Assembly: GCF_021533215.1 (NCBI RefSeq)
Contig: NZ_JAJNKA010000013.1
Coordinates: forward strand, 62,001 to 126,000
Reading direction: 5' to 3'
DNA length: 64,000 bases
From: Portibacter lacus
GTDB taxonomy: Bacteria; Bacteroidota; Bacteroidia; Chitinophagales; Saprospiraceae
Shown: positions 3,894-30,934 of the stretch, in pieces
Layout of the letters: each line of letters begins with the position of its first letter
How positions within the stretch are numbered: the first letter of the stretch is position 1
Notes under the pieces: generated by a model
Seen by the model: the letters and a program-made list of their open reading frames with translations, nothing else
Told to the model about the DNA's origin: nothing
Database searches by the model: none
Made by a program: the position numbers and the translations under genes

Positions 3894-3907
3894 TGTGTAC
3901 GTACACA
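3894..3907. promoter_or_regulatory. Predicted LacI-family operator
   Basis: TGTGTACGTACACA is a perfect 14-bp palindrome with a central CG step, the usual architecture of LacI-family operators. Closely matching sites occur at 7161-7174 (before susC) and 22945-22958 (before lacI). It lies about 770 bp before the CBM9-like gene and about 285 bp before an orphan terminator. The regulator is inferred to be the LacI protein at 21781-22872. Confidence 0.6.
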
Positions 3908-4191
3908 ATTCTAAAGTTATTTACTATATTTATTGAACGAAATACAGTATTTTGATCTTAATTATTTGTATTTCAGTTGATTATGTATAATTATGAAGTT
4001 ATTTTACTTTTACTAATCAATGTAGACTAAATCTTGTGTTTTCAAGATTATTAAATGCATGAAGAAGTAATATTCACATAACAATACATAACATTAATAC
4101 AAGAAAAATATAGTGCTACTAGGATTACTTAAGTAGCCATTGAAGATAAAAATTAAGTAGAGTTGATTTTTTTTCATGACAACAACATGAT

Positions 4192-4222
4192 CAGGTGAGT
4201 TTCCAAACTCACCTGTTTTTTT
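4192..4222 (+). terminator. Orphan intrinsic terminator in gene-free region
   Basis: The 11-bp perfect stem CAGGTGAGTTT/AAACTCACCTG is followed by seven T. No ORF ends upstream within 500 bp apart from the desaturase, which already has its own terminator at 3692. It therefore implies either a small RNA ending here or an attenuator in a long leader of the 4677 operon. Confidence 0.75.
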
Positions 4223-4676
4223 ATGCCTAATTTTTCTTTGGTTCTTATGGCTTATAATCTTAGTGACAATATTACCAATAGATACAGGTTTGGATGAAGA
4301 AGTTTGACCTGAGCGGAGATATTTTCAACAAGAAGTGTTAAGTAAAAAGGTAATAATAGAAGGTAAGATGACTCCGTAATTGCATTTTTATTTAAATTTA
4401 CGAATCAAGGTAAGTCTGTGAAGTTTAAATTATTGAACTTATAAGTCTGATTCGATCAGAAATAAAGCTCGATACATTTAGATATTCATCTCTTCTTATT
4501 TCTAGAATTTAGAAGGTTCCGGGGACCAAACCTAGAAATATTGGATGTCCCTTCAGATGAAAAAGACGGACGGCCAGAAATTTAACATTAGATTTATAGG
4601 TAATTGTGAAGTTACCATTGAATGAATAGTAACTAACAGAAAATAGCTAAAATTGATAAGTTTATATATTAAAAAC

Positions 4677-5705
4677 ATGGGTAGTCGCGTTAACGTCCAC
4701 GCTTTTTGTTTCTTTTTATTATTGATCTGCGTAACCGTGAAAGCGCAAGACTGCGATGACTTAAAAGCCTATAAGCATCCGATAGCATTTAATCCTGCAC
4801 TCTATCATGCTAGCAAAATCAATGCAGAATTAGTAATCGATGGGAAGTTAGATGAGCAAGAATGGTTAGATGCTGAATCATCGGAGGATTTTGTGGACAT
4901 TGAAGGTGAACTAAGGGAAATGCCAGAGAGGAGGACCATGGTGAAAATGCTTTATGATGATGAGTATTTATACATAGGAGCCCATATGATAGAAGATCAC
5001 ATCTGGTATTCATTGACTGAGAAAGATGCTATTATATATAGAGATGATGATTTTGAAATTTTTATTGATGCAGATGGAAACGGACATAATTACCATGAAT
5101 TTGAATTTAATGCGAACAACACCATGCTTGATTTATGGATGTTGGTTCCTTATAGTATTAGTCAAAGACCACATTATATCATTGAATGGGACGCGAAAGG
5201 TGTCAAGTCTGCTACTTATTTATCAGGAACTGTGAATGACCCTAGTGATATAGATAGTTTTTGGTCTATTGAAATTGCAATTCCGTTAAGAACTGTCGGA
5301 GGAAAACGAGATTTTTGGCGAATTGATTTTTCCAGAGTAGACTGGCTAATGGATGTGATCGATGGAAAGTATGTAAAGCAGAAAAAGCAACCAGAAAGAA
5401 ATTGGGTATGGTCACCTACGGGTTATATTGACATGCATAAACCAGAAACTTGGGGATATGTGGCTTTTGATCCTGAATTTGAAATTGGTGAAGAGGAGTT
5501 ATTCAAGTGGGAGATGTGGAAGATTTATTACAGTGTTAGAGCTTTCAAGCGAAAAAAAGGATACTATCCTGAAGATATAGTATGTTTAACTTCAGACAGC
5601 AGAATTAGAATAAGTGTCTCAGAATACGGATTTGATCTTATTGGTCAATTTGGAGAGCACACATGGACGATTGATAAATATGCTTTAATTAGACGTAATA
5701 AATAA
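4677..5705 (+). CDS. Secreted CBM9-like (carbohydrate-binding) protein
   Basis: The ATG at 4677 is preferred over an upstream in-frame TTG at 4653. It gives a clean signal peptide (MGSRVNVHAFCFFLLLICVT, cleavage near VKA-QD) and a 342-residue protein. The mature part opens with a typical CBM9-like signature: INAELVIDGKLDEQEWLDAE, then a strand pattern with DDEYLYIGAHM, DDDFEIFIDADG and YHEFEFNANNT. These features match the DOMON/CBM9-like family that binds glycan ends, often seen as a stand-alone protein in Bacteroidota glycan loci. The C-terminal 70 residues are not recognised. The GHL10-like gene follows by 15 bp, so the two form an operon. The predicted LacI operator lies far upstream. Confidence 0.8.
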   Translation: MGSRVNVHAFCFFLLLICVTVKAQDCDDLKAYKHPIAFNPALYHASKINAELVIDGKLDEQEWLDAESSEDFVDIEGELREMPERRTMVKMLYDDEYLYIGAHMIEDHIWYSLTEKDAIIYRDDDFEIFIDADGNGHNYHEFEFNANNTMLDLWMLVPYSISQRPHYIIEWDAKGVKSATYLSGTVNDPSDIDSFWSIEIAIPLRTVGGKRDFWRIDFSRVDWLMDVIDGKYVKQKKQPERNWVWSPTGYIDMHKPETWGYVAFDPEFEIGEEELFKWEMWKIYYSVRAFKRKKGYYPEDIVCLTSDSRIRISVSEYGFDLIGQFGEHTWTIDKYALIRRNK

Positions 5706-5720
5706 GAATAATAAACTGAC

Positions 5721-6827
5721 ATGAAGAAAAGAACATTTTTAAAGACGACTGGTATTGTAATAGGAGGGATGCCATTTTTACTTAACTCATTCACCAACAA
5801 GAAAGGATTACCTAAATATTGGGTATGGTTACGACCAAGTCTAAAAACGACAGATTCAGAATGGGTAGATATTTTTAAAAAATTAAAAGAATCAGGTGTT
5901 CAAGCAGTCTTGCCTCAAATTTATTCTAGCAGTTCCGCGCTCTTCGAAATAGAAGGCTATACGGTTCAAGATAGGTGGCTAGAAAGAATCATTCCAATAG
6001 CGCAGAAAGAAGGTATAGAAATTCATGCATGGATGTGGACAATGATCTGCAATGATTCGAAAATGCTAGAGGAACACCCGGATTACTATGTCGTTAATAG
6101 AAAGGGAGAGTCAGCAGCTACATCACCAGCTTATGTCGGTTATTACAAGTTCCTTTGTCCAAGAAGACCAGAAGTGAGAGCATATGTTCAGCATCGTGTG
6201 AAAACGCTAGCATCTATTCCAGGTTTAAGTGGTGTGCATCTCGATTATGTAAGAATGCCTGATGTGATTCTAGCAGAAGGCCTTCAACCAAAATATAACA
6301 TTGTCCAAGATAAAGAATATCCAGAATATGATTACTGCTACTGTGATTATTGCAGGTCTGAATACAAGAAAAAGTCAGGAATTGATCCGATGGAAATAGA
6401 AGATCCTGAAAACGATGCAGATTGGTATCAATTTCGTTATGATGCAGTGAATGATATGGTGAATAATTTTCTGGTTCCAGAGGCTAGAAGTCGAGGTAAA
6501 AAAATTACTGCTGCAGTTTTTCCTAATTGGGAAAGTGTTCGCCAGCAGTGGCATAAGTGGGATCTGGACGGCTTTTTGCCAATGTTATACCATAAGTTCT
6601 ATAATGCAGAATATCAATGGATAGGGGAGGAAGTAGTGAAAGCTAAAGATCGTCTACAAAATGATAAGCCAGTTTATGCAGGAATGTTTATACCGCATTT
6701 AAAAGGTAATGAATTAGTCTTAGCTTATGAAGATGCTAAGTCTAAAGGTGCTGACGGATTTGCATTGTTCGCACATGGAAATCTGAAAGATGAGGATTAC
6801 GTCATGCTGAAAAAAATGACGAAATAA
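5721..6827 (+). CDS. Family 10-like glycosyl hydrolase (GHL10/DUF187 type)
   Basis: A 368-residue protein with a Tat-like or Sec N-terminus (MKKRTFLKTTGIVIGGMPFL). It has a TIM-barrel pattern typical of the GHL10 putative glycosidase group: YWVWLRPSL, WVDIFKKLKESGVQAVLPQI, EIHAWMWTM, GLSGVHLDYVRMP (about residues 169-181), AAVFPNWESV and DGFLPMLYHKFY. The acidic residue in the LDYVR strand is the likely catalytic or substrate-contact position. A CYCDYC motif at about 208-213 could bind a metal. It is co-transcribed with the CBM9-like gene and probably acts on glycans in the periplasm. Substrate is unknown. Confidence 0.78.
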   Translation: MKKRTFLKTTGIVIGGMPFLLNSFTNKKGLPKYWVWLRPSLKTTDSEWVDIFKKLKESGVQAVLPQIYSSSSALFEIEGYTVQDRWLERIIPIAQKEGIEIHAWMWTMICNDSKMLEEHPDYYVVNRKGESAATSPAYVGYYKFLCPRRPEVRAYVQHRVKTLASIPGLSGVHLDYVRMPDVILAEGLQPKYNIVQDKEYPEYDYCYCDYCRSEYKKKSGIDPMEIEDPENDADWYQFRYDAVNDMVNNFLVPEARSRGKKITAAVFPNWESVRQQWHKWDLDGFLPMLYHKFYNAEYQWIGEEVVKAKDRLQNDKPVYAGMFIPHLKGNELVLAYEDAKSKGADGFALFAHGNLKDEDYVMLKKMTK

Positions 6828-7367
6828 TACTCGATTAGCCAAAAATATAATCACTTCATTCTAAAGACTTTTTTTGTGAAAATGGCAGAATCCTTACTAC
6901 CATAAATTCACAATAATGAGTCGATAACTGCTAACGCCTTAGATCTACTTTTGATCTAGGGCTTTCATGCTTTGTTCTGTAGTTTTTTTTGTCATTCATA
7001 AGTAAGAAATGCATTTTTAGCATATTCTTGTTGCTAGTTATCTTGACGTTGTTTTTAAATGATTGATTGTGGCTTTCTGCATTATATAATAAGGTGGTTC
7101 ATATGATTCGCTTTCATTCATTTCCATAATGGTATTTATTAAATTATTAAATATGGAATTGTTGTACGCACACAGAATTAATGTTTATTTATTATATTTA
7201 ACTAACTTTTACTTGGGTTTAATTGCAAGTGCTTGATATATAGTAGTTTAAATTTTAAGTCTGCAATTGAAGTTGATCAGTAAAAAAAATATGATAGATT
7301 GTTTTAAAGAAAGAAATCTTTTATTGTATTAAAATTTATTGGCTTATAACTTTCACTATAAAATTTA
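6828..7367. other. Intergenic region upstream of susC
   Basis: A 540-bp spacer without ORF. An imperfect hairpin at about 6935-6957 (CTTAGATC/GATCTAGG) with a T-rich stretch further on may terminate the GHL10 operon. The predicted LacI-type operator at 7161-7174 is the main recognisable element. The rest is AT-rich leader to susC. Confidence 0.5.
7161..7174. promoter_or_regulatory. Predicted LacI-family operator upstream of susC
   Basis: GTTGTACGCACACA matches the perfect palindrome at 3894-3907 at 11 of 14 positions, including the central CG. It is centred about 207 bp before the susC ATG. The right half-site (ACACA) is fully conserved in all three sites of the window. Confidence 0.55.
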
Positions 7368-7373
7368 TTGAAT

Positions 7374-10355
7374 ATGAACAAAATTTGTTTTACACTCTGC
7401 TTGTGCATCGTTAGTCTATTTGGACTACAAGCGCAGAAGACAGTGACAGGGACCATAATAGGTTCGGATGGCATAGCACTAATAGGTGTGAATGTATCTG
7501 AACAAGGGTCTTCCAATGGGACAGTTACTGACTTAGATGGCAAGTACTCCCTTGAAGTTTCAGACAACGCCACATTGGTGTTTTCCTACACTGGTTTTAC
7601 TACAATGGAAATTGTAGTAGGTGACGAAAGTCAAATTGATGTAACTTTGTCTCAAGGACTTCAGCTTAATGAAGTAGTGGTCACAGCCTTGGGAATTAAA
7701 CGGGAGTCTAGTACGCTCACGTATGCTCAACAAACTGTAGATGGCGATGAATTAACACTCGCTCGTGATGTTAACTTTCTTAATAGTCTTTCAGGTAAAG
7801 CTGCCGGAGTAGAAATTCAGAAGAGTTCTGGAGGTGCTGGTGGGTCTACTAAAATAGTATTACGGGGAGATAAATCATTAGGAGGAAGTAGTAGTCCTCT
7901 ATTTGTAATAGATGGTATTCCTATGGCCAACAATAAAGGCTCTCAAGCTGGAATGTGGGGTGGTGTTGATGGAGGAGACGGAATGTCTCAATTGAATCCA
8001 GAAGATATCGAAAGTATTTCTATTCTTAAAGGTTCTAATGCTGCGGCGCTTTATGGAAGCCAAGGGGCAAATGGTGTAGTGCTTATCACTACCAAACAAG
8101 GAAAAAATGGAAAAGCGGTCGTAAGTGTTAGCTCTGGTGTTACTTTCGAAAATAGACTATTGAAGCCAGATCTTCAGTATAAGTATGGAAGTGAAAACGG
8201 TACTAAGGAAAGCTGGTCTACCACTCCAGGTGACTATGATGATAACTTTGTTGAGGACTTTTTCCAGACTGGTTCGAACTTGATTAATTCAATTTCTGTT
8301 AGTGGCGGAACAGACAGAACTAAAGCGTACTTCTCTTTTGGGAATGTTACAGCTAATGGTATTCTTGAAAATCATAAATATGATAGGAACAACTTAACTT
8401 TTAAGCAATCTACAAAGTTGCTTAATGATAAATTGACCATCGGATCAAGTGTGATATTGTCTATTGAGGAAACATTGAATCGTCCACGTGCTGGTTATTA
8501 CGATAATCCATTAACTGGTCTATATCGATTTCCTAGAGATAGAAATTTTGATGATTTTAAAAATAATTATTCTATCGTAGATCCGAATACTAATCTTGCA
8601 GGGCAGAATTGGTTTGTAATTGATCATCATCAGTCTAATCCTTATTGGCTTCGAAATAAAGAAACGCAAGAGCATGAGAATAAGCGAATGATAGGAAGTC
8701 TAACGCTTGATTATCAGTTTAATGATAAATTGAGTATATCAGCTAGAGGTAATTACGATTATGCTGACAAGAGAGCTGAACAGAGACAATCTGCAGGAGG
8801 GAATACGACAACAGTGCATCCTAATGGTAGCTGGAATTATTCGAAATGGAATGATGAACTTATCTATACGGATGCCATCTTGAATTACAATGATAATTTT
8901 GGCGACTTTAGTCTTGGTGTTATAGGAGGTACAAGTTATCAAAAAACTGTTTTTGGAAAAGGTGTAGAGGTTCCAGGAAGCGCGCAGTTCGGGCTCCAAT
9001 ATGCTAATGAATTCTTCTTTCAAAATATTGGAACAAATGTACCTGTCAGATCTATATTGAATAGTAGATTGGTTAAGCAAGCAGTATTTACTAATGCTAC
9101 TATCGGTTACAAGGAAATGTTTTACGTGGATGTATCCGGTCGTAATGATTGGGCTTCTTCATTAGCTGGAACAGGAAATGAATCTTATTTCTATCCATCA
9201 TTTGGAGCAACAGCCATCCTAAGTAAAATCATTACAATGCCTGATTTCATAACCTTTGCTAAAGTTAGATTTTCTAATTCTAGAGTTGGTAATGAGGTGC
9301 CGTTTAATGTAGTAGATCCAGAAAATACAATTGCTGCTTCTGGTGGTGTGAATAGAAACCTCCAGCAACCATTTGATAACTTAAGTCCAGAAATCATTAC
9401 CAGTAATGAAATAGGCACTAATTGGAGATTTTTTGATGATAAATTTGGCGTAGATCTTACTTTGTATAGTACAGTAAGCACAGACCAATTTATCTCTTTA
9501 CCTGCGCCTTCGGGATCAGGATTCTCCACGTATTTTGTGAACGCTGGAAAGATTGTGAATGAGGGAATAGAAGTGGTCGTAGATATCACTCCGATTTATA
9601 CTCCTAAATTTTTATGGAAAACATCCTTTAACTTTTGGGCGAATAGAAACGAAGTAGTAGAAACGCATCCAGACCTAGGTCCACTTAGTACCGGTGCTTC
9701 AGAAGGCTATACTGCGAGATTCGAAGAAGGAGGTTCAGTTGGTGATATTTATGCTTTCATGTTCCAAAGAGATGATCAAGGAAGAATTATGCTTGATGAA
9801 GCGACTGCTAGACCTTTGAAAACAGCAGAAGTTGAATTTGCAGGTAATCTTAATTCTGATTGGAGTCTTGGATGGAACAATAGTTTCAAGATGGGTAAGT
9901 TCGGGTTAAATTTTATCGTAAATGGAAAATTTGGTGGACTTGCATTCAGTCAGACAGAATCTTTATTGGATGAAGCTGGTGTATCTCAGAGAACAGCTGA
10001 CGCTAGAGATGCGGGAGGTGTTGCAGTTAACGCAGTACAAGGCGATACTCCAGTTAGCATGGTAGATACTGAAACTTGGTACAGACAAGTGGGAGGAAGA
10101 AATGGAATTGGAGAGGTTTATCTTTATGACAGAACGAATGTAAGGTTGACTCAGGCTAACTTATCCTATAATGCAACATTTGGTAATGTCCCTGTGACAT
10201 TTTCATTAGTAGGACAAAATTTATTCTTTCTCTATATAAAAGCTCCATTTGATCCTGAATTAGCAATGAATACAACGCGAAACTCAGCATCCTTGGATAA
10301 TTTTAACTTACCGACTACTAGAACATTCGGGTTTAATGTAAATGTTAAATTTTAA
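7374..10355 (+). CDS. SusC/RagA-type TonB-dependent outer membrane transporter
   Basis: The ATG at 7374 is preferred over an in-frame TTG six bases upstream and gives 993 residues. A signal peptide (to about residue 20, LQA-QK) is followed by a CarboxypepD_reg-like domain (about 22-100: VTGTIIGSDGIALIGVNVSE, GTVTDLDGKYSL). Next come the TonB-dependent plug (GLQLNEVVVTALGIKRESST, then SSPLFVIDGIPMAN and NPEDIESISILKGSNAAALY) and a 22-strand barrel ending FGFNVNVKF. It would import oligomers across the outer membrane with the SusD-like lipoprotein encoded 11 bp downstream. Length and motifs are full and normal. The predicted operator upstream suggests LacI control. The substrate cannot be named. 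Confidence 0.95.
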   Translation: MNKICFTLCLCIVSLFGLQAQKTVTGTIIGSDGIALIGVNVSEQGSSNGTVTDLDGKYSLEVSDNATLVFSYTGFTTMEIVVGDESQIDVTLSQGLQLNEVVVTALGIKRESSTLTYAQQTVDGDELTLARDVNFLNSLSGKAAGVEIQKSSGGAGGSTKIVLRGDKSLGGSSSPLFVIDGIPMANNKGSQAGMWGGVDGGDGMSQLNPEDIESISILKGSNAAALYGSQGANGVVLITTKQGKNGKAVVSVSSGVTFENRLLKPDLQYKYGSENGTKESWSTTPGDYDDNFVEDFFQTGSNLINSISVSGGTDRTKAYFSFGNVTANGILENHKYDRNNLTFKQSTKLLNDKLTIGSSVILSIEETLNRPRAGYYDNPLTGLYRFPRDRNFDDFKNNYSIVDPNTNLAGQNWFVIDHHQSNPYWLRNKETQEHENKRMIGSLTLDYQFNDKLSISARGNYDYADKRAEQRQSAGGNTTTVHPNGSWNYSKWNDELIYTDAILNYNDNFGDFSLGVIGGTSYQKTVFGKGVEVPGSAQFGLQYANEFFFQNIGTNVPVRSILNSRLVKQAVFTNATIGYKEMFYVDVSGRNDWASSLAGTGNESYFYPSFGATAILSKIITMPDFITFAKVRFSNSRVGNEVPFNVVDPENTIAASGGVNRNLQQPFDNLSPEIITSNEIGTNWRFFDDKFGVDLTLYSTVSTDQFISLPAPSGSGFSTYFVNAGKIVNEGIEVVVDITPIYTPKFLWKTSFNFWANRNEVVETHPDLGPLSTGASEGYTARFEEGGSVGDIYAFMFQRDDQGRIMLDEATARPLKTAEVEFAGNLNSDWSLGWNNSFKMGKFGLNFIVNGKFGGLAFSQTESLLDEAGVSQRTADARDAGGVAVNAVQGDTPVSMVDTETWYRQVGGRNGIGEVYLYDRTNVRLTQANLSYNATFGNVPVTFSLVGQNLFFLYIKAPFDPELAMNTTRNSASLDNFNLPTTRTFGFNVNVKF

Positions 10356-10366
10356 GAAATAAAAAC

Positions 10367-11950
10367 ATGAGAAAAATAACAATATTAAAATATCTATGTG
10401 TTTTAGCGCTGTTTGTTGGGTGTACCAGCAATTTTGAAGAGTTAAATACACATCCATATCAGATTTCTGGTGAATCGTTACGACAGAATAACCAACATGT
10501 TGGAGCTTTCTTCCCTCAGATTCTGAACAATATTTTTGGAGATCAAATAGATCACAATCTTGCGAACGAAGCATTTGTTCGTCACCTAGCAACGCCTACT
10601 CCTTTTACATCGAATATTAATAATACAACTTATTTTATTAGATGGAATGGGAACTGGGGGCGAGTTTATAATAGTGTATTTGGACCTGCGCGATCAGTTA
10701 TTGAAGTCGCTGAAGCTGAAGGAAGTGTAGAATTCGCTTCATGGGCGAAGCTACTTCGAGTTTTGGCTGCATCTAGATTGTCTGCACGTCACGGTCCTAT
10801 CATCTACAGTGAATATGGTTCGACGAATAAGACGATCAACTACGATAGTGAAGCTGCTCTTTACAACCAATGGTTTTCAGAATTAGATGAAATCATTGCA
10901 GGTTTAAGTGCTAATCAAGATTTTACGGGTTTAGCGCCATTTGATGCAAGTTATGGTGGAGACATTAGTGCTTGGATAAAATTTGCAAATAGTCTTCGTC
11001 TTAGATTGGCGATGAGAATTTCTAAAGTAGATCCAGCGCTTGCAAAAGCTCAAGGTGAGAAAGCGATAGCTGATCCGGGAGGACTTATAATGTCAAATGC
11101 GGACAACTTCATGATTTTGAATTACGATGGTTTCTTTAAGCCTGCAAGAATATGCTTCGGATGGGGTGATACTCGGATGAGTGCAACGATGGAATCTGTA
11201 CTAGGAGGATATGCTGATCCAAGAGTGGAGAAGTATTTTGATCCTGCTACTGATCCTGCAGTATATGCTGAACATCCAGAATTCCCATATAAAGGAATCC
11301 ATGCGGCGTCTGTTTTAAATGCAAAAGATGATCGACTGAGCTTTTCAACAATTAACTCTCAGTTTAATAACAATGGGTATCCGAAAAGAAGATGTTTTAC
11401 TTCTAGTGAAACTCATTTCCTTTTAGCTGAAGCTGCACTTCGTGATTGGGCTGGAGCAGGATCTGCTCAGGAGAATTATGAAAACGGAGTTAGAGAAGGT
11501 TTCGCTGAATGGGGAGCTGGTGGTGTTGATGACTACTTACTGGACGATACTAAAGTGCCATGGGATTATACAGATCCAAAGGCTGAAAACAACGATAATG
11601 CTTTTACAAGTAGAATTAAAGTCACTGTGAAATGGGATGAAGCTGCCGATAAGGAAGTGAAATTAGAGAAAATTATGACACAAAAGTGGATTGCTGCTGT
11701 GCATAATACCGTAGAAATATGGGTTGACCATCGTAGAACAGGCTATCCTAAATTGCCTTACAATTTCAAAAATGATAGTGATGCAACTTGGGGTATTATT
11801 GCTAAGGACGACTTCCTGAGAAGAATGCCTTTTGTAAATGGTGAGCGAAATAATAATCCAGACGGTGTTGCCGATGCAACATCTAAGCTTGGAGGACCAG
11901 ATGAAATTGGGACTAGACTTTGGTGGGATACCGGAGGGTCTAATTTCTAA
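10367..11950 (+). CDS. SusD/RagB-family outer membrane lipoprotein
   Basis: The 527-residue protein starts with a lipoprotein signal (MRKITILKYLCVLALFVG, lipidated Cys19) and an FEELNTHP segment typical of the SusD-like_2 group. Internal landmarks include RLSARHGPIIYSEYG, WIKFANSLRLRLAMRIS, ETHFLLAEAALRDW and QKWIAAVHNTVEIWVDHRRT. These are the TPR-like helices and the pyramidal ligand-binding scaffold of the family. It would cap the SusC channel and hand over ligand on the cell surface. Gene order susC-susD with 11 bp spacing and a strong terminator after the stop define a two-gene transcript. Confidence 0.95.
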   Translation: MRKITILKYLCVLALFVGCTSNFEELNTHPYQISGESLRQNNQHVGAFFPQILNNIFGDQIDHNLANEAFVRHLATPTPFTSNINNTTYFIRWNGNWGRVYNSVFGPARSVIEVAEAEGSVEFASWAKLLRVLAASRLSARHGPIIYSEYGSTNKTINYDSEAALYNQWFSELDEIIAGLSANQDFTGLAPFDASYGGDISAWIKFANSLRLRLAMRISKVDPALAKAQGEKAIADPGGLIMSNADNFMILNYDGFFKPARICFGWGDTRMSATMESVLGGYADPRVEKYFDPATDPAVYAEHPEFPYKGIHAASVLNAKDDRLSFSTINSQFNNNGYPKRRCFTSSETHFLLAEAALRDWAGAGSAQENYENGVREGFAEWGAGGVDDYLLDDTKVPWDYTDPKAENNDNAFTSRIKVTVKWDEAADKEVKLEKIMTQKWIAAVHNTVEIWVDHRRTGYPKLPYNFKNDSDATWGIIAKDDFLRRMPFVNGERNNNPDGVADATSKLGGPDEIGTRLWWDTGGSNF

Positions 11951-11977
11951 ACTTTTAAGTCTGGAAAAATAAAAAAG

Positions 11978-12012
11978 GAGTTGTTTTAGATTGATCTAAA
12001 GCAACTCTTTTT
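11978..12012 (+). terminator. Intrinsic terminator after susD
   Basis: A 13-bp stem (GAGTTGTTTTAGA with TCTAAAGCAACTC, one T-G wobble) with a TTGA loop is followed by a T-run. It separates the susCD transcript from the FG-GAP gene pair. Confidence 0.88.
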
Positions 12013-12103
12013 AATTCCAAAAAAATCAATAGATAATTTCTAGTAAATTTGAAGAAGTAATATGTTATTACTCGCTTCGCCAATGTTGAATATAATTGAT
12101 GTT

Positions 12104-15100
12104 ATGACTCGTTTATTATTAAGTATGATTTTGTGTGCCTTATCCTTTGGACTGTATACGAGTTGTTCAAAGGAAAAAGTAAGTTTTGACTCAAATGATG
12201 AAAAGCTCTTTACCTCCATTCCATCCAGTCATTCGGGGATTACTTTCTCGAATCCAGTGATTCAGACAAGAGAGAATAATCATATGATCAATGTTGAATT
12301 TATCTCTGGTGCTGGAGTTGCCATAGGTGATATCAACGGTGATGGTTTGCCAGATATATTTTTAACTGGAAACCAAGTGAGAGATCGCTTATACTTGAAT
12401 CAAGGAGATCTGAAATTTAAAGATATATCTGATAAGGCGGGTATCGTGAATAATAAAATATGGTCTTCAGGAGCGACACTTGTTGATATAGACCGTGATG
12501 GAGATTTAGATATTTATGTCTGTAGAAATGTATATCTCGAGGATGAAAAGAGTGCGAATCAGCTGTATATAAATAACGGAGATCTTACGTTCACGGATCA
12601 GGCCAGTGAGTTTGGATTGGCGGACCGAGGATTCTCGATGCAAGCAATTTTCTTTGATTACAATAAAGATAAACTACTAGATATGTACTTGGTAAATCAA
12701 CCTCCAAGTATTCCTGGTCAAGGTGGTGAACTAAATAAATCAATGGGTGCGAATCCATTGTTTAGTGATAAACTATATAAGAATACAGGCAATAATAAAT
12801 TTGTTGATGTTTCAGACGAAGCCGGTGTGAGGAATTTCGCATTTGGATTGTCTGTTTCTGTAGGCGATCTAAATCAAGATTCGTGGCCGGATCTTTATGT
12901 TGCCAACGATTTCGACGTACCTGATCATCTCTATATCAATCAGAAAGACGGAACATTTAAGGATGAAGTTTGGAATGGGACCAAGCATATTTCAAATTTT
13001 AGCATGGGTAGTGATATCGCTGATTATGACAATGATGGATTACTCGATATCATGGTTTTAGATATGATGCCAGAGAATCACAAGAGAATTAAAACCCATA
13101 TGGGTGCTATGCAGCCTGAAACATTTTGGTCCTTGGTTGAATCTGGTGGTCATTATCAGTACATGTTTAACACACTCCAAAGAAACAATGGAAATTCTAC
13201 CTTTAGTGATCTCGCACAGTTAGCTGGAGTAAGTAATACAGACTGGAGTTGGGCGCCACTATTCGCCGATTTCGATCAAGACGGCAATAAAGATATTTTT
13301 ATAACCAATGGTGTCATGAGTAATAATAGGCTGAGTGATCTGACTTCAGTGTATGATCGAAAATTAGATAGTTTAAATCAAATAGCTGAAAAAACAGGAA
13401 GAGATCCGCAGTCTATGATCGACGTGATGGAATTTGTCAATTTAGCACCAAAAGATAAGATGGCCAATTATATCTATAAGAACAACGGTGATCTGACTTT
13501 TACGAATAAAATCAAGGAGTGGGGGATGGAAGAACCTACACTTTCTAATGGTGCTGCATATGCAGATTTAGATTTAGACGGAGACCTTGACTTAGTAATT
13601 AATAACATAGATGATGAAGTTTCACTTTATAGAAATAATGCGAGTGAAAAAGAGCTTGGAAACTTTATTGCATTCAACATTGATCCTGGAGTAAAGGATC
13701 ATCCCTATGGAACTAGGGTGAGTCTATATCGGAATGATTCGTTGTGGCAAATGGTCGAACTTGCTAATGGGCGAGGATATCTGTCAAAGAGTGATGATAA
13801 AATCCACTTCGGTGTAGGAGATAAAAATTTAATAGAAAAAGTAGTTGTAGATTGGTTAGATGGACGGCAATCTATTTTAACCAACTTAGAGACGAATAGG
13901 ACTCATGCGATAAATATTAATAGTGGAAAAGTAGCAAGTAATCCAAATGTAAAAAAGTGGAATCCTATTTTTCGTGATGTTTCTAAAGACTTGCAGTTGA
14001 ATGCGGTGATGCACAAAGAAAATGAATATGATGACTATGTAAAAGAAATATTACTTCCACATAAAATGTCGCAATTTGGGCCATTTGTGGCTGTAGGTGA
14101 CATCAATGGCGATCAAAGAGAAGATTTTTTCTTAGGTGGAGCTGCTGGAAGTGCTGGTAAATTATTCCTGCAAAATACTTCTGGAACATTTGATGAAGTA
14201 GCGTCTGGTCCATGGATAGCTGATGCAAATTCTGAAGATATGGGTGTTGCCTTTGTGGATTTTGATGGTGATGGCGATCTGGATATTTTTGTAGCTAGTG
14301 GTGGGAATGAATTTGACGTAGATGATCCGTTACTCCAAGACAGATTGTATGAGAATCAAGGAAGTCTGCGTTTTACTCGAACCAAAGGGATTCTTCCTAA
14401 TTATCGGGTCAGTAGTTCATGCGTAGAAGTATCAGATTTTGATAAGGATGGTGACCTTGATTTATTTGTTGGAGGGCGTCTAGTTCCTGGAAAATATCCA
14501 CATCCTGCGAATAGTATATTGCTTGAAAATAAAAAAGGAAAGTATGTTGATGCTACAAATACTTTAGCCCCAGATTTTGAAAATCTAGGGATGGTGACGT
14601 CGGCGAAATGGGCGGATATCAACAACGATGGACTAGATGATTTATTAGTGGTCGGTGAATGGATGCCTGTAACAATGTTTATCCAAACGAAGGAAAATGG
14701 CTTTCAAAAGGAAATTGCTCAAGGACTTGAAGAAAGTGTAGGCTGGTTCTATTCTGTGGATGCAGAAGATATGGATGGTGATGGAGATCTCGACATCGTA
14801 GCTGGTAACCTAGGACTTAATTATAAATATAAAGCTACGGTAGATGAGCCATTCGAAGTTCATAGTATGGATTTTGATGGAAATGGAAGTTTGGACATCG
14901 TGCTTAGTTATTATGAACATGGTGAATTATATCCAGTGCGGGGACGATCATGTTCATCCCAGCAAATCCCAGAGCTTTCTGAAAAATTCCCTACCTATGA
15001 AGATTTTGGGGTGTCGAATTTGAGAGACGTGTATGGTGAAAATTTAGATAAGGCTCTTAATTTAAAAGCCCAAACATTTGCTTCTTTGTATATAGAGAAT

Positions 15101-15454
15101 CTAGGCGATCTAACATTTAACGCAAAGCCTTTGCCGAATCAAGTTCAAATATCGTCCATAAATGATATTTTAATTAAAGATTTTGACAATGACGGTCATA
15201 ATGACTTGTTACTTGCAGGTAATTTATTTACCTCAGAAATTGAAACGACACGAAACGATGCTGGGATCGGCATGTTTCTTCTGGGCGATGGTCGAGGAAA
15301 TTTCATTCCGCAATCAGTAAATCAAAGTGGTTTCTTTGCACCATTGGACGTGAAAAATATGCAGTTTTTAAAAGGTGTAAATCAAGAGCTTATTCTCATT
15401 GCTAATAATGATGAAAGATTGCAAGTGATAGAATATGATACACCAAATAATTAA
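12104..15454 (+). CDS. FG-GAP/VCBS-repeat lipoprotein with ASPIC/UnbV domain
   Basis: The ATG at 12104 is chosen over one at 12062 because it yields a lipoprotein signal ending LYTSC (Cys22 of 1116 residues). The protein is a chain of FG-GAP/VCBS beta-propeller repeats, each with a calcium-binding-type loop such as GDINGDGLPDIFL, DIDRDGDLDIYV, DYDNDGLLDIMV and DLDLDGDLDLVI. An ASPIC/UnbV-like segment around residues 500-600 (YGTRVSLYRNDSL, YLSKSDDKIHFGVG, VVVDWLDGR) is followed by a second set of repeats. Such large secreted proteins accompany SusCD systems in marine Bacteroidota. Ligand binding at the cell surface is inferred, not shown. The next gene, 26 bp on, is a shorter relative. Confidence 0.88.
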   Translation: MTRLLLSMILCALSFGLYTSCSKEKVSFDSNDEKLFTSIPSSHSGITFSNPVIQTRENNHMINVEFISGAGVAIGDINGDGLPDIFLTGNQVRDRLYLNQGDLKFKDISDKAGIVNNKIWSSGATLVDIDRDGDLDIYVCRNVYLEDEKSANQLYINNGDLTFTDQASEFGLADRGFSMQAIFFDYNKDKLLDMYLVNQPPSIPGQGGELNKSMGANPLFSDKLYKNTGNNKFVDVSDEAGVRNFAFGLSVSVGDLNQDSWPDLYVANDFDVPDHLYINQKDGTFKDEVWNGTKHISNFSMGSDIADYDNDGLLDIMVLDMMPENHKRIKTHMGAMQPETFWSLVESGGHYQYMFNTLQRNNGNSTFSDLAQLAGVSNTDWSWAPLFADFDQDGNKDIFITNGVMSNNRLSDLTSVYDRKLDSLNQIAEKTGRDPQSMIDVMEFVNLAPKDKMANYIYKNNGDLTFTNKIKEWGMEEPTLSNGAAYADLDLDGDLDLVINNIDDEVSLYRNNASEKELGNFIAFNIDPGVKDHPYGTRVSLYRNDSLWQMVELANGRGYLSKSDDKIHFGVGDKNLIEKVVVDWLDGRQSILTNLETNRTHAININSGKVASNPNVKKWNPIFRDVSKDLQLNAVMHKENEYDDYVKEILLPHKMSQFGPFVAVGDINGDQREDFFLGGAAGSAGKLFLQNTSGTFDEVASGPWIADANSEDMGVAFVDFDGDGDLDIFVASGGNEFDVDDPLLQDRLYENQGSLRFTRTKGILPNYRVSSSCVEVSDFDKDGDLDLFVGGRLVPGKYPHPANSILLENKKGKYVDATNTLAPDFENLGMVTSAKWADINNDGLDDLLVVGEWMPVTMFIQTKENGFQKEIAQGLEESVGWFYSVDAEDMDGDGDLDIVAGNLGLNYKYKATVDEPFEVHSMDFDGNGSLDIVLSYYEHGELYPVRGRSCSSQQIPELSEKFPTYEDFGVSNLRDVYGENLDKALNLKAQTFASLYIENLGDLTFNAKPLPNQVQISSINDILIKDFDNDGHNDLLLAGNLFTSEIETTRNDAGIGMFLLGDGRGNFIPQSVNQSGFFAPLDVKNMQFLKGVNQELILIANNDERLQVIEYDTPNN

Positions 15455-15480
15455 AATTAAAGATAGAAGTTGAAGAGAAA

Positions 15481-17733
15481 ATGAAAAGTGGTAATTATTT
15501 CTGGCTGGTCGGATTATGTCTTCTTTTACAGATTGGATGTATTAGCGATAGCACTGTTAGCACTGATGAGGTGTACGAATCTAAAGTGGAGATGGCAGAA
15601 TCCACGAAATCGATGATGAAGAAAGTCAGTGATGCCTATGAAACAATCGATGTTGAAAATGTCGGATATGTTCTCAATCAACAAAGGGCAAATATGTATA
15701 AGAAAAAATTGGATGCTCTCAAGCCTGGAAAGGAAATGGACGTCTTACTTTATGATTATGCCGACGAATTGCTGCGAGCGGGAAACATCGATTTGTCTAT
15801 CAATATTTTCGAAGACTTTCTGGCCTATTTTACGGCAAATGAAATTTTAGGGAAGGTAGAAGCGGTTGCTGAAGTTAAGCGAAAATTGGCGATAGCTTAT
15901 ATGAGGAAGGCGGAGTTAGAGAATTGTGTTAGTAATCATAACAATGAATCATGTATCATACCGATTAGCCCAAAGGCTCAGTATGTGATTACAGAGAATG
16001 TTGAGAAGGCGGTGAAATACATGGAGGATTTTCTCGACATCTATCCAAGGGATTATGAAATTCACTACCTCTTGAATATTGCATATATGACCCTAGGACA
16101 GTATCCTGATAGTGTTCCTGAAATTTATAGAATACCAGAAAGTTATTTTGATAATGTCGACTTCCCTAAGTTTACAGATGTTGCCATGGATCTAGGATTA
16201 GATATTAATGCATTATCTGGTGGAGTGTGTATCGATGATTTTAATAATGACGGTTACCTTGATCTGATCATTTCTTCTTGGGGACACAAGGATCAAATTC
16301 GATATTTTGAAAATGATAAAAATGGTGGCTTTGAAGATAGAACCTCTTATTCTGGGTTAGTTGGGGTGACAGGTGGATTAAACTTGAAACATGCTGATTA
16401 TGATAATGATGGAAATTTAGATTTTATCATTCTTAGAGGTGCTTGGCTGGAAAACTATGGAGGAATCCCGAACTCGCTGATCAGGAATAATGGCGACGGT
16501 ACTTTTACGGATGTAACGGAGAAAGCTGGAGTGCTTTCTTATCATCCTACTCAGACTGCCGTTTGGCGGGACTTTAATTTAGACGGGTGGATAGATTTAT
16601 TCATTGGCAACGAAAGTTCACCTAAAGGAAAATACAGATCCGAACTGTATCTTAATAATGCTGATGGCACCTTCTCGAATGTATCAGAGCAGTCTGGAAT
16701 TGATTCGCTTGGCTTTTACAAAGGAGTCGCTGCTGGAGATATCAATAATGACGGATATCCAGATCTTTATATATCTAATTTTAATGGGAATAATCTATTA
16801 TTTCAGAATGTAAGCTATGATGGTGATCTTCAATTTAATTTACTAGACAGCAGTGGAGTTTCGGAACCAATAGAAAGTTTTTCTACCTGGATGTTCGATT
16901 ATAATAATGATGGATGGGAAGATATTTTCGTGAGCGCATATTCATCAGGACAGATCACTCCAGTTAATATGATGATGGCCAATGCGAGAAAGGTTTTTAA
17001 CAAACGCCGACCAAAACTCTATAGAAATAATGGTGATAATACATTTACGGATGTTTCAGAAATAGTTGGATTAGATGAACCCGTAACAACCATGGGTTGT
17101 AATTTTGGAGACTTGGATAATGATGGTTTTCTGGATTTCTACTTGGCAACAGGAGACCCAAGTTTTGTATCGTTGGTACCTAATAAGATGTATCTAAATA
17201 AGGGAGGTGAATCCTTTCAAGACATAACCTATAGTGGCGGGTTTGGTCATATACAAAAGGGTCATGCCATCGGATTTGGCGATCTAGACCAAGATGGTGA
17301 TCAAGATGTCTATGCGGTTATGGGAGGAGCATACGAAGGAGACAATTTCCAAAATGTTTTATTTGAAAATCCGATTGGAAATGAGAATAACTGGATTAAT
17401 ATTAAATTAGAAGGAAGTGAAAGTAATCGTTCGGCGATAGGTGCAAGGATAATTCTGACTTTGGACATTGATGGAAAAGAAAGAAAGGTTTTCCATACCG
17501 TTGGAACAGGTGCCAGCTTTGGCGGAAACAGCATCCTTGCAGAAATCGGAATCGGTCAGGCAACGGAGATTAAAGAAATCATTGTCAAATGGCCCATTAA
17601 ATCAGCCACTGTTTCAAAGTTCAATAAGGTTCAAGCAAAGCAACATATTTTGATAAAAGAGGGTGCCGATGATATAGAGGTTTTAACATTGAACGCCATG
17701 CCTTTTAAAAAGAAAGCACATCATCATCATTAA
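15481..17733 (+). CDS. CRTAC1-type FG-GAP/ASPIC-UnbV lipoprotein
   Basis: A 750-residue lipoprotein (signal MKSGNYFWLVGLCLLLQIG, Cys20). Residues about 25-220 are helical with TPR-like character. The remainder is FG-GAP repeats with loops such as DFNNDGYLDLII, DYDNDGNLDFII, DINNDGYPDLYI and DLDQDGDQDVYA. A C-terminal ASPIC/UnbV domain (NWINIKLEGSESNRSAIGAR and VGTGASFGGNSILAEIGIG) follows. The chain ends with four consecutive histidines (KKKAHHHH), which could bind metal. It shares an operon with the upstream 1116-residue relative and converges on the PhyH gene. Location on the cell surface or periplasm is inferred. Confidence 0.87.
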   Translation: MKSGNYFWLVGLCLLLQIGCISDSTVSTDEVYESKVEMAESTKSMMKKVSDAYETIDVENVGYVLNQQRANMYKKKLDALKPGKEMDVLLYDYADELLRAGNIDLSINIFEDFLAYFTANEILGKVEAVAEVKRKLAIAYMRKAELENCVSNHNNESCIIPISPKAQYVITENVEKAVKYMEDFLDIYPRDYEIHYLLNIAYMTLGQYPDSVPEIYRIPESYFDNVDFPKFTDVAMDLGLDINALSGGVCIDDFNNDGYLDLIISSWGHKDQIRYFENDKNGGFEDRTSYSGLVGVTGGLNLKHADYDNDGNLDFIILRGAWLENYGGIPNSLIRNNGDGTFTDVTEKAGVLSYHPTQTAVWRDFNLDGWIDLFIGNESSPKGKYRSELYLNNADGTFSNVSEQSGIDSLGFYKGVAAGDINNDGYPDLYISNFNGNNLLFQNVSYDGDLQFNLLDSSGVSEPIESFSTWMFDYNNDGWEDIFVSAYSSGQITPVNMMMANARKVFNKRRPKLYRNNGDNTFTDVSEIVGLDEPVTTMGCNFGDLDNDGFLDFYLATGDPSFVSLVPNKMYLNKGGESFQDITYSGGFGHIQKGHAIGFGDLDQDGDQDVYAVMGGAYEGDNFQNVLFENPIGNENNWINIKLEGSESNRSAIGARIILTLDIDGKERKVFHTVGTGASFGGNSILAEIGIGQATEIKEIIVKWPIKSATVSKFNKVQAKQHILIKEGADDIEVLTLNAMPFKKKAHHHH

Positions 17734-17816
17734 ATATAGAAACAGTCAATACCTCTGCTTTTAAATATCCATGCATCAAATAATAGCTAACTTCTATTTG
17801 AATAATTCAAGTCCGT

Positions 17817-18539
17817 CTACTTTTGTTTTTCTTTTCGGTCGCCTAGATGATTGAAACCTTGAGATCGTTCATATTCGATCATCTCCTTCGAGCGGAAATT
17901 TAAAATAAATGCCCTCCTTCTGTTTCCAGTGCTATTTCCTCTTGCATAATGAATGGTCCTTCCATGGTGAAAAGTACATGAACCTGCCTTTAATTCTACA
18001 GCTTTCGCTTCGTCTTCTCTTGCTTCGCATTTCATAGCTCCGCCATTTCCCGTTAGGATGTGAGCTCTGAGTTCTTCCTTATGAGATTTTGGAACATACC
18101 ACATACATCCATTTTCTTTTGTAACATCATCTAAAGCTACCCAACAAGAAACAGCGCGCTTATCTTCCATATCTATCCAGTAAGCCTCGTCTTGGTGAAA
18201 TGGGGTTTCCTTGTTAGTGAATGGAGGTTTGTCAATTAACATGTCAAAGTCCAATTCCATATCTGGACCAAGCAATTCCTTTGCTAACTTATTGATTTTC
18301 TGGTGGAGAATAGAATGCAGTAAGGGAGGATGTAGCATAGAAGGCCGCATGATCTGGACGATCAACTCCTTTTTGCCTTCACTTCCACTGAGGTCGGACC
18401 TATGTCCCACGGTGGAAATCGTACCACTTAAGAAATCTTCATAAATATTTCTAAAGTACTCTATCTCAGTCGGATTAAGGATATCATGGTAAGTAGCAAA
18501 TCCTTCTCTTTCAAATTCTTCAATAATTGAATTACTCAT
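17817..18539 (-). CDS. Phytanoyl-CoA dioxygenase (PhyH) family protein
   Basis: A 240-residue Fe(II)/2-oxoglutarate dioxygenase. The facial triad is visible as H115-x-D117 in TPFHQDEAYW and the distal His197 in FHHGRTIHYARGNS. RRRAF at about 207-211 supplies the Arg expected to bind 2-oxoglutarate. There is no signal peptide, so it is cytoplasmic. PhyH-family enzymes hydroxylate many substrates, and in marine Bacteroidota they often lie in carbohydrate or osmolyte loci. The substrate here is unknown. It converges with the FG-GAP gene and diverges from the DUF5107-TPR gene, sharing a roughly 150-bp promoter region. Confidence 0.85.
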   Translation of the reverse strand: MSNSIIEEFEREGFATYHDILNPTEIEYFRNIYEDFLSGTISTVGHRSDLSGSEGKKELIVQIMRPSMLHPPLLHSILHQKINKLAKELLGPDMELDFDMLIDKPPFTNKETPFHQDEAYWIDMEDKRAVSCWVALDDVTKENGCMWYVPKSHKEELRAHILTGNGGAMKCEAREDEAKAVELKAGSCTFHHGRTIHYARGNSTGNRRRAFILNFRSKEMIEYERSQGFNHLGDRKEKQK

Positions 18540-18692
18540 GCGCTCGGTGTTTGTGTAATAAATATATAATTTATCTGAAACATTAAGGGAAATCAGTATT
18601 GGCGAAAAAATAATGCATGTATTTTAAAAGCTAAATAAACGTGGGGTTTAATGAAAAATAGTATCTTAATTGTATCTAATAATCGACCTAAA

Positions 18693-21600: not shown

Positions 21601-21767
21601 TTGCGCTTCAAAAATTGGCAAATAAAGAAGTCCTACAAAGTACACTTGCTAAATTGGAGATGTCGGAATCGAAAGATGATCAGTTAACCTTAGCCATATT
21701 TAATTCTTCTGTTACGAATAATGAGGAGGATATGGTCGCTCTTCTGGAAAGAATAGTAGGGTATTGA
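18693..21767 (+). CDS. Secreted DUF5107 protein with C-terminal TPR repeats
   Basis: Starting at the ATG at 18693 gives a signal peptide (MKMNLSTYTSFLTLILLHIP, cleavage near IAQ-NA) and 1024 residues. An in-frame ATG at 18651 would add 14 residues before it. The N-terminal 400 residues match DUF5107, a galactose-mutarotase-like beta-sandwich, with VYILPEIGGKIWGAIEKKTG, MRGPWTSGGVEFNFG and GHWSPYEEMPGQKLWLWA. Residues from about 450 are tandem TPR units, for example YREYGKARQDFATLLKTIP and YDEALAFANRVLELDTYHPE. DUF5107-TPR proteins are thought to bind or process sugars, and this one sits beside the LacI gene in the middle of the locus. It is convergent with lacI with a 13-bp gap. Confidence 0.83.
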   Translation: MKMNLSTYTSFLTLILLHIPLASIAQNASISIENRSIETYAFDEPNPLPILAENPKIYPYFKFEGYSQEKTDREWDVVKMENDFITVYILPEIGGKIWGAIEKKTGEEFLYRNEVIKFRNIAMRGPWTSGGVEFNFGIIGHTPATATPVDYEIMENEDGSVSCVVGAMDLPSRTQWRVEIRLDKDKAFYETNASWYNPTSLNQSYYNWMTGAAAASEDLEFFIPGNQSIEHGGDPNPWPIDKDGRKLFNYKDNNFGSHKSYHIVGEYKDYFGGYYHDKEFGFGHWSPYEEMPGQKLWLWALSRSGGIWEDLLTDTDGQYIEFQAGRLFNQYFPEGGNNPITQASFDPYVMDRWREIWFPFVEIGGMEAASEWGVMNVEYEDGMAIIGLNALQTLHEDFMVSINDQEVVSESLSMKPMDVFYKKVKLSPTDKLEVKVGDHKIYYTNDTDRMKLKRPFYSESRNSLTADQKLYFEGWEAMKYREYGKARQDFATLLKTIPYHQDALVKMAELEFKRANYDEALAFANRVLELDTYHPEANYKAGIIYRAKKDYINALETFGWAARSMGFRSVSFAQMAEIYVALEEFDKATDYARKALDFNKYNINARNVLIVCARKFKDEKTHQAQIKKVLEYDPLNHFAQFESHENLKVSNEFPAESSLELALQYFHLGLMSDAIHVLSLQHQNTKNSLWLAYLLGDVDPEKSAEKLIQALEGKIDFTFPYRRESIEVFEWVKDQSENWKSDYYLALNYYAVGKNELGDQLMQACENIPDSPVFYRFRGQMLKNGSIDARIGDYDSALALEGNDWKQREEHIQLLLEAGELEKAKLMSEKTYQMFPKNYNTGLIYAKSLLSSKEYERSIEVLQNIVVLPSELARSSRHTYYRAHVFLAEELIGNEKYDKAIQILERSKLWPENLGVGKPYIVDERLQDYLIGLSYEKLGKKDKADSSYKRIVSLSEKEATTKIYQVLKLLALQKLANKEVLQSTLAKLEMSESKDDQLTLAIFNSSVTNNEEDMVALLERIVGY

Positions 21768-21780
21768 GGCTATTTCTAGA

Positions 21781-22872
21781 CTACATTACAATGGGCATTT
21801 CTTCGAACTGTCGATCGGTATAATAATTGGCGTTTTCTTTCATGACTACATCAAGTGGTAAGTGTTGCAACTTGTTAGGTTCGATTTTTCTAATTAGAAA
21901 ATTGAAAATATTGATAACTGCTAAGTAGCCTTGCTTGAATGGATTCTGATTGATTAGAAAGTCAATTTCTTCAGATTCTAGATAAGTTAAGTTTTCGTCA
22001 ATTAAATCATATCCGACCAACTTAAGATCTGAAATTCCAAGTTTTTTTAATGCATTGACCACATGAAAAGCTCTAGAAGTAGAAATGAAGATACCTTTTA
22101 TATTAGGACATTTCGTTAAGTGCTTTTTGAAGAAATTATACATTCCTACTGTGTCGTAAGGATTTTCAAAGTGACCCGTGATAACATTTATTCCGAGATC
22201 ATGATGCTCTTTAAAGTAATCTTTGAAACCGCGTTCTTTGTCAATTAAGTGTTGTGAATTGTATACTAATTCCTCCACATGGCAGATCATTGCACTTTCG
22301 CCAGCAGAAAGACCGAAAGCAAGCAACTTTGCACCTAAGGTTCCACTGTGATAGGAATCTTGCCCGATATAGCAAATCAGATTCGAATCTTCTAAGTCGA
22401 GATATGTATTAATTAATACATAGTGAATATCTTTCTGATCACACTTTTTTAAGAATGAAATGCTTTGCTCGGTGAAGATGGGAGATACAATTACACAATT
22501 ATAAGTTTTTTCTAGAATAGCTTCTGATTGTCTAACAAATTCCTCTTCGTTGTTTTCCATGAAATGGAAGAAATCGACAGTGACGCCATAATCTTTCACA
22601 ACCTGTAATGCTTTTAAAATGCCATCTTTAGGTTGATTCCAAAAGGAGTCTTTGTACTCATTCGGAATCAGTGCAGCAATTTTCCATTCTTTATTATAGG
22701 CTAATACACTTGCTAATACATTAGGACTGTAATCTAATGACTCTAGGGCTTTTAGTACTTTTTCCTCTGATTTTTTAGAGACGTTGCCTCTTTTATGGAG
22801 TACTCGATCTACCGTTCCAGGAGAAACACCTGCAACAATAGCAATATCTTTTATCCGTATTCTATCTTTCAT
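21781..22872 (-). CDS. LacI-family transcriptional regulator
   Basis: 363 residues. The N-terminal helix-turn-helix and hinge are clear: IKDIAIVAGVSPGTVDRVLH at about 7-26, then KRGNVSKKSEEKVLKALESL and YSPNVLASVLA. The periplasmic-binding-protein-like effector domain follows, with GQDSYHSGTLGAKLLAFGL, DKERGFKDYF, GIFISTSRAFHVVNALKKLG and INQNPFKQGYLAVINI. The SPGTVDRVLHKRGNVS form is the Bacteroidota sugar-regulator subtype. The nearest predicted operator is centred about 80 bp before its ATG, suggesting autoregulation, and similar sites precede susC and the CBM9 operon. It sits divergently from the cytochrome operon. The effector is unknown; an amino sugar phosphate or oligosaccharide is a guess from the neighbours. 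Confidence 0.94.
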   Translation of the reverse strand: MKDRIRIKDIAIVAGVSPGTVDRVLHKRGNVSKKSEEKVLKALESLDYSPNVLASVLAYNKEWKIAALIPNEYKDSFWNQPKDGILKALQVVKDYGVTVDFFHFMENNEEEFVRQSEAILEKTYNCVIVSPIFTEQSISFLKKCDQKDIHYVLINTYLDLEDSNLICYIGQDSYHSGTLGAKLLAFGLSAGESAMICHVEELVYNSQHLIDKERGFKDYFKEHHDLGINVITGHFENPYDTVGMYNFFKKHLTKCPNIKGIFISTSRAFHVVNALKKLGISDLKLVGYDLIDENLTYLESEEIDFLINQNPFKQGYLAVINIFNFLIRKIEPNKLQHLPLDVVMKENANYYTDRQFEEMPIVM

Positions 22873-23267
22873 GAATCAATTGCAATTTAGAGGAATAAAT
22901 ATGTAAAGCCAAGTGATCATTTCAATTTAAAGTTAATAAATAAATGTGTTCGCACACAGTTTTTTGTAAAATTATCATTATTTTCGTTACAGGGTAGGGT
23001 TGGGCATTTGACTTTCCCTATGAATAGGGAAGTTTAGGCCAATTGCAGAAATTTTAGTTCCATCAACTAAAATTTTTTACAAGCAGTTTAAATGATAGTT
23101 AGGTGGAAAATGATTGCAAGATATGGTGGTAGTCATTTTATTTGAGAGAGATTTTGCAAAATATTTATATTTCAAATTATTGTTCTTCTTTTTATAAGTT
23201 AGAGCAATTTTTTAATAATTTGAACCGAAATCATCATACAATAACTGAATAGAAACATGAAAACATT
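22873..23267. other. Divergent regulatory region between lacI and the cytochrome operon
   Basis: This 395-bp region has no ORF. It contains the predicted operator at 22945-22958 and a short hairpin at about 23014-23031 (TTCCCTA/TAGGGAA). The rest is AT-rich and must include the promoter of the six-gene plus-strand operon. Confidence 0.55.
22945..22958. promoter_or_regulatory. Predicted LacI-family operator between lacI and the cytochrome operon
   Basis: TGTGTTCGCACACA is a near-perfect 14-bp palindrome with a central CG. It matches the site at 3894-3907 at 12 of 14 positions. It lies 73 bp before the lacI start and 310 bp before the divergent PSCyt1 gene, so it could control both. Confidence 0.65.
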
Positions 23268-27034: not shown

Positions 27035-27043
27035 AAATTAAAA

Positions 27044-28878: not shown

Positions 28879-28879
28879 T

Positions 28880-30925: not shown

Positions 30926-30934
30926 TAAGACAGA

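Follow-up and report, generated by a model that had tools for sequence, protein, structure and literature searches.

A LacI-family regulator and its predicted operators at a susCD and cytochrome locus of Portibacter lacus

The stretch analysed here, referred to as the window, comprises 64,000 nucleotides of the Portibacter lacus genome (NCBI RefSeq assembly GCF_021533215.1, contig NZ_JAJNKA010000013.1, forward-strand positions 62,001 to 126,000) and carries a gene for a LacI/GalR-family regulator together with three similar 14-bp palindromes, which are its predicted operators. The regulator gene (lacI; 21781..22872, minus strand) encodes a protein of 363 amino acids that scores 54.6 bits against PF00356 (cut-off 27; Pfam LacI, 9.6e-15) and 123.7 bits against PF13407 (cut-off 35.1; Peripla_BP_4, 1.3e-35). 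Its helix-turn-helix (HTH) domain contains the recognition helix GVSPGTVDRVLH, and the HTH is followed by the residues NVLASVLAYNK, a candidate for the hinge helix, whose leucine in LacI-type proteins inserts at a central CG.

The perfect palindrome TGTGTACGTACACA (3894..3907) and the copy TGTGTTCGCACACA between lacI and the divergent PSD1 gene (22945..22958) both match the pattern TGTGTNCGNACACA exactly. The third, GTTGTACGCACACA (7161..7174), lies before susC and is damaged, departing from that pattern at two positions; one of its half-sites is intact and the other is without its outer T and G. Compared with the palindrome at 3894, the 22945 copy differs at two positions and the 7161 copy at three, as an earlier note on this DNA had reported, and the absence of a fourth copy from the window was borne out at up to two mismatches. 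The 22945 site is 72 bp from the lacI start and 309 bp from the PSD1 start, the distance from the 7161 site to the listed start of susC is 193 bp, and about 745 bp separate the 3894 site from the listed start of a gene for a CBM9-domain protein. Being even palindromes with a central CG, upstream of the regulator and of its candidate targets, they have the form of LacI-type operators, with binding as a prediction. A scan of the whole genome (G000; 6,312,271 bases in 43 contigs), which the same note had proposed as a check, returned two exact matches, both at this locus (3894 and 22945), and six sites with at most one mismatch.

Downstream of the 7161 site, on the plus strand, are genes for a SusC/RagA TonB-dependent transporter (7368..10355; TIGR04056, 1.1e-177, with Plug and CarbopepD_reg_2 matches) and a SusD-like surface lipoprotein (10367..11950; Pfam SusD-like, 2.5e-136). 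Two genes with profile matches to FG-GAP and ASPIC-UnbV follow on the same strand (12062-15454 and 15481-17733) and, from their order and strand, may share the susC transcript. With a tandem susC/susD pair, carbohydrate-active genes and a regulator, the locus has the composition of a polysaccharide utilization locus. On the far side of lacI, also on the plus strand, a row of genes with profile matches to PSD1/PSCyt cytochrome, DUF1501, beta-propeller, CHB_HEX_C and PSCyt/Fn3_assoc families (23268..30925) is found in largely the same order in both genus mates (G001 and G002). The row ends with a NagB/PIG-L fusion gene (30935..32851, plus strand; PRK02122, 1060 bits), whose NagB part, a predicted glucosamine-6-phosphate deaminase, exceeds the TIGR00502 nagB equivalog cut-off (252.5 versus 236.9 bits). 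The whole row, 23268-32851, is presumably transcribed as a unit. At curated thresholds, the RNA families found in the window were limited to two tRNAs.

The placement of the palindromes in related genomes provides the strongest support for their role as operators. We recorded 75 lacI places, including the window gene and its paralogue, and analysed the neighbourhoods of 72, which are related and hence not independent. Within 300 bp upstream of these 72 genes, an exact site was found in 26 cases, a site with at most one mismatch in 39, and a site with at most two in 46; in the same test, Markov-resampled sequences gave 0, 0.03 and 0.56, respectively. In both genus mates the palindrome before lacI is exact, and the operator and the 23268-32851 gene row adjoin lacI in all three genus members. 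The 119 genomes, the window's included, contain 23 exact sites, 14 of which are followed within 600 bp by the start of a gene homologous to one in the locus; for the 21 sites of the reversed pattern the number is zero (Fisher 8e-6). One of these 14 (in G053) precedes a homologue of just 25% identity and lies inside a reading frame. Exact sites also fall outside reading frames of at least 100 amino acids more often than reversed-pattern sites do (15/23 versus 1/21; Fisher 3e-5). Of the 13 genomes with a lacI match at an E-value of 1e-75 or better, a line picked after the list was seen, 10 contain an exact site, compared with 6 of the 106 other genomes; moving the line to 1e-30, where the search ended, gives 11 of 22 versus 5 of 97. 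The reversed pattern has no such link, occurring in 3 of the 13 genomes (p 0.41). Among 87 sites in lacI loci, 13 are without any locus gene within 350 bp. The earlier note had suggested comparing upstream regions in relatives, and the comparison shows a conserved placement before both lacI and susC.

The susC orthologues provide a second line of placement evidence. A site with C or T at operator position NT-3 precedes all eight of the closest orthologues (at least 70% identity, window included), two of which (window and G057) have sites with two mismatches. More distant homologues have a site in 0 of 10 cases at 39-44% identity and in 2 of the last 12 found, at 35-37%. In G001 the susC orthologue and lacI are on separate contigs (C144 and C56), and TGTGCACGTACACA stands 271 bp before that susC. 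Since the closest susC orthologues carry an upstream site, the degenerate palindrome at 7161 most plausibly represents a conserved operator that has become worn, and susC, which the earlier note had named as a target, is supported as one.

Two further arrangements of palindromes were seen in the relatives. Tandem operators 30-32 bp apart, or approximately three helical turns, are present at L066, L069, L071, L178, L179, L180, L181, L186, L193 and L194. In G067, G344, G282 and G146, a gene adjacent to lacI contains a second operator-like palindrome at a distance of 417-439 bp from the first (L076:2370, L199:11607, L204:11607 and L209:11756). Pfam assigns the gene to the ROK family at L076 and L204, the two loci tested, and at the others it looks alike. 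The intragenic palindrome resembles the auxiliary lac operators, but its bases code for LCAHTV, a conserved stretch, and codon constraint could also account for it.

Bacteroidota promoters have a -33 element. Putative -7 boxes reading TATATTTA and resembling TAnnTTTG lie on the plus strand 17 nt past the 3894 operator (3925..3932) and 18 nt past the 7161 operator (7193..7200). Boxes of this type are found 14-19 nt past the site on 30 of 89 promoter sides, compared with a mean of 7.5 and a maximum of 16 in 500 resampling runs, and susC promoter sides have them in 16 of 24 cases. In Flavobacterium psychrophilum, the TAnnTTTG box is located at -12 to -5 (PMC9723704). With the box so placed, the operator would span roughly -43 to -30 and overlie the -33 element, and since the -7 box often follows at 14-19 nt, a bound repressor would cover that region.

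The recognition helix and the operator also vary together. In the 52 of the 72 loci with a usable site, half-sites paired with Lys or Arg after GVS, at helix residue AA-15, have 27 C and 11 T at NT-3, and those paired with other residues have 62 T, 2 C and 2 G (Fisher 5.6e-14, a value that ignores kinship); the remaining 20 loci, without a relaxed site, were dropped. In three species of one genus (G016, G243 and G291) whose LacI has Lys, the susC site reads TGTGC...GCACA and matches the site of their own lacI. The residue class needs three changes on the tree for the 72 rows and two for the 52. Because the p value ignores kinship and just two independent pairs remain, the covariation is suggestive. 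It was set aside as a proof of binding, the raw count being strong but the independent pairs only two.

Taken together, these data make it very probable that the product of lacI (21781-22872) recognises the palindromes as its operators; it would be an autoregulated, sugar-released repressor of lacI, the divergent cytochrome row and susCD. This assignment, which the earlier note had advanced, is strongly supported by the placement upstream of lacI relatives and susC, with binding itself predicted. Control of lacI and susCD is well supported by the comparison of genomes, and that of the cytochrome/DUF1501/NagB-PIG-L operon holds at the level of the genus. In the proposed mechanism, the dimeric repressor would bind TGTGTNCGNACACA when its sugar ligand is absent. 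It would then overlap the -33 region of promoters with a -7 box 14-19 nt further on, blocking RNA polymerase, and would repress both its own gene and the divergent cytochrome/DUF1501/NagB-PIG-L operon. Repression of susCD would be leakier because one half-site at 7161 is damaged. The repressor would leave the DNA on binding a product of oligosaccharide degradation, perhaps an amino sugar.

We infer that the ligand is an amino sugar, either free or within a small oligosaccharide. Near the sites in relatives there are a ROK-family gene (G067 and G282), a GH130 gene (G001) and NagB/PIG-L genes, and a transporter near the sites in G032 scores above the gluP cut-off and below the fucP and NagP cut-offs.

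Several observations weigh against assigning the palindromes to this regulator. The motif occurs no more often than its reverse, either in the window's genome (67 sites at up to two mismatches, versus 116 for the pattern read backwards) or across the 119 genomes (23 exact sites versus 21), and the window's three sites at up to two mismatches, against 0.99 expected, are reached in 8 of 100 shuffles and are not significant alone. Motif counting was accordingly rejected as proof, counting alone being weak evidence where the reversed pattern is equally common. Twenty of the 72 lacI loci have no site within 400 bp at up to one mismatch to the relaxed pattern TGTGNNCGNNCACA, and the three lacI places outside the 72 (G008, G072 and G001:C19), seen as short loci, have none at up to two mismatches. 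The 14-19 nt spacing to a -7 box is present in only 9 of 52 lacI promoters. The covariation, once kinship is counted, is not significant, and the LacI of G001 has Thr, yet its susC site carries C in one half. Finally, a paralogue in the same genome (G000:C22) has a nearly identical recognition helix.

A narrower explanation is that LacI represses only itself and susC, with the cytochrome/NagB-PIG-L and CBM9/GHL10 operons being nearby and uncontrolled. Among the 30 best PSD1 matches, genus included, an exact site lies within 450 bp only in the window and G002, and a 1-mismatch site in L259; moreover, in G001 a GH130 gene, whose first ATG is 33 bp from the operator, stands between the site and PSD1. 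These facts favour the narrower explanation, as does the terminator-like hairpin between 3894 and the CBM9 gene described below. In all three genus members, however, the row of genes is directed away from the operator, and by eye, -7-like letters (TATTTTCG or TATTTTTG) are found 19-20 nt past the operator toward the row. NagB-PIG-L homologues also occur within 6 kb of 29 of the 72 lacI genes, and 12 of the 87 sites are within 350 bp upstream of one. On balance, we regard this explanation as unlikely. The earlier note had placed the cytochrome operon with its NagB/PIG-L fusion under LacI, a claim that stands within the genus, where the divergent region is common to all members, and weakens outside it, where PSD1 genes are mostly without a site.

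The CBM9/GHL10 pair is the weakest of the predicted targets, and its control by the 3894 operator is doubtful. The pair consists of genes for a CBM9-domain protein (4653..5705; Pfam CBM9_1, 2.2e-10) and a GHL10 (glycosyl hydrolase-like 10) protein (5721..6827; Pfam GHL10, 2.2e-09), both on the plus strand. The position of the 3894 site upstream of this pair, as the earlier note had described it, is correct. The site nevertheless aligns with the operator before a susC of G002 (85% over 41 bp), which is a different susC, 33% identical to that of the window, and no gene follows at the window site. In addition, a terminator-like hairpin with a T run (4192..4222, plus strand) and the remnant of a MORN-repeat gene (4391..4633, plus strand) intervene; the remnant was recognised by two short matches to a G002 gene, where the frame is open and matches Pfam MORN. 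The doubt about this target arises from the alignment with the promoter of an absent susC and from the intervening decayed gene and hairpin. Since G001 and G002 likewise have such hairpins ahead of CBM9, read-through or attenuation at this point is possible. The interval 3894-4653 also shows turnover, in that the G002 susCD pair is not at this place and the MORN gene has decayed in the window, with an interrupted copy in G001.

Another regulator could in principle bind the palindromes, for example the LacI paralogue G000:C22:217887, one of three LacI-type HTH matches in the genome at E-values up to 0.001 (the window gene, this paralogue and one on C38). Its helix stretch differs from that of the window protein at a single residue (VSIGTVDRV versus VSPGTVDRV), whereas the C38 protein has a different helix (ITAATVSRAL). 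None of the five members of the paralogue's clade, the paralogue included, has a palindrome at up to two mismatches within 300 bp upstream, and the sites are found with genes related to the window lacI, making this explanation highly improbable. Two members of this sister clade, G057b and G199b (L082 and L205), instead carry GTTAACGTTAAC-type palindromes upstream. That the palindromes arose by chance, as their ordinary number at two mismatches and the near-equal totals for the reversed pattern might suggest, can be set aside almost entirely, given where they lie in related genomes, before lacI and susC, in comparison with the control.

With the palindromes read as operators of the window's LacI, the system is an ordinary regulon of the LacI family, apparently undescribed. 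The LacI-family regulons in RegPrecise have even palindromes with a central CG, mostly 30-140 bp upstream, and local sugar genes (Ravcheev et al., 2014; PMC4052901). The present system resembles them in its palindrome and its local sugar genes, and their 32-bp tandem-site peak matches several relatives here. Its target genes differ from those described in the sections consulted, and a literature search gave that paper a score of 0 for Bacteroidetes. The code of Camas et al. (2010; PMC2978694) similarly ties recognition-helix residue AA-15 to operator bases, but for the TVSR class and with AA-15/16 linked to NT-5/NT-4, whereas the present proteins are of the TVDR class and NT-3 varies (numbering matched by us). 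A term search of its main text returned neither NT-3 nor TVDR, and an AA-15/NT-3 link has so far not been seen in that text. The Bacteroides regulators KdgR, UxaR, UxmR and UxuR are likewise Bacteroidota LacI proteins with predicted sugar regulons, but they govern uronate pathways (PMC3878776), and the comparison made here is one of protein family and pathway. In the open-access literature, we found no description of the present regulon, the exact operator words only in two unrelated papers, and nothing directly on the locus among work on NagB-PIG-L, Saprospiraceae LacI and DUF1501.

The locus thus offers a testable operator and regulator for an environmental Bacteroidota group for which we found no LacI regulon described in the open-access literature. 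It also places the poorly understood PSD1/DUF1501 cytochromes, NagB/PIG-L fusion and GHL10 in a testable sugar-response context, and the AA-15/NT-3 covariation supplies a specific prediction about how LacI proteins beyond the TVSR class recognise their operators. A broader and more tentative proposal, possible but doubtful, concerns a TVDR-helix LacI subfamily distributed across the family of Flavilitoribacter and relatives, whose member Flavilitoribacter nigricans NCBI places in Saprospirales. In this subfamily, a basic AA-15 might select C at NT-3, an undescribed rule that would apparently have arisen twice. The subfamily might serve as an amino-sugar switch, and in the window's genus it might have captured a Planctomycete-type cytochrome/DUF1501 module. 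If so, a sugar signal would be linked to a poorly understood oxidative system.

The regulon may extend beyond the 28 kb that the earlier note had assigned to it under one signal; that claim is supported for lacI, susCD and, at genus level, the cytochrome row, with CBM9/GHL10 doubtful and the 28-kb limit not firm. A 1-mismatch site precedes a gene for a GMC oxidoreductase (G000:C41:232232) and its G002 orthologue, at differing distances. We inspected 22 orthologues out of the 124 genomes with a match; G001 and 19 others have no site at up to one mismatch, although one of those 19, in G065, which is without a lacI match, has a site at two mismatches. Among the orthologues inspected, sites at up to one mismatch are thus confined to the window's genome and G002, so the GMC oxidoreductase was rejected as a fourth target conserved among relatives and kept as a possible one. 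The other three off-locus 1-mismatch sites in G000 are, respectively, inside a reading frame, without the central CG, and 128 bp before a TonB-receptor-like frame. Elsewhere in the window, positions 41412-45965 encode a protein of 1517 amino acids, which its G002 homologue matches many times over, suggesting internal repeats.

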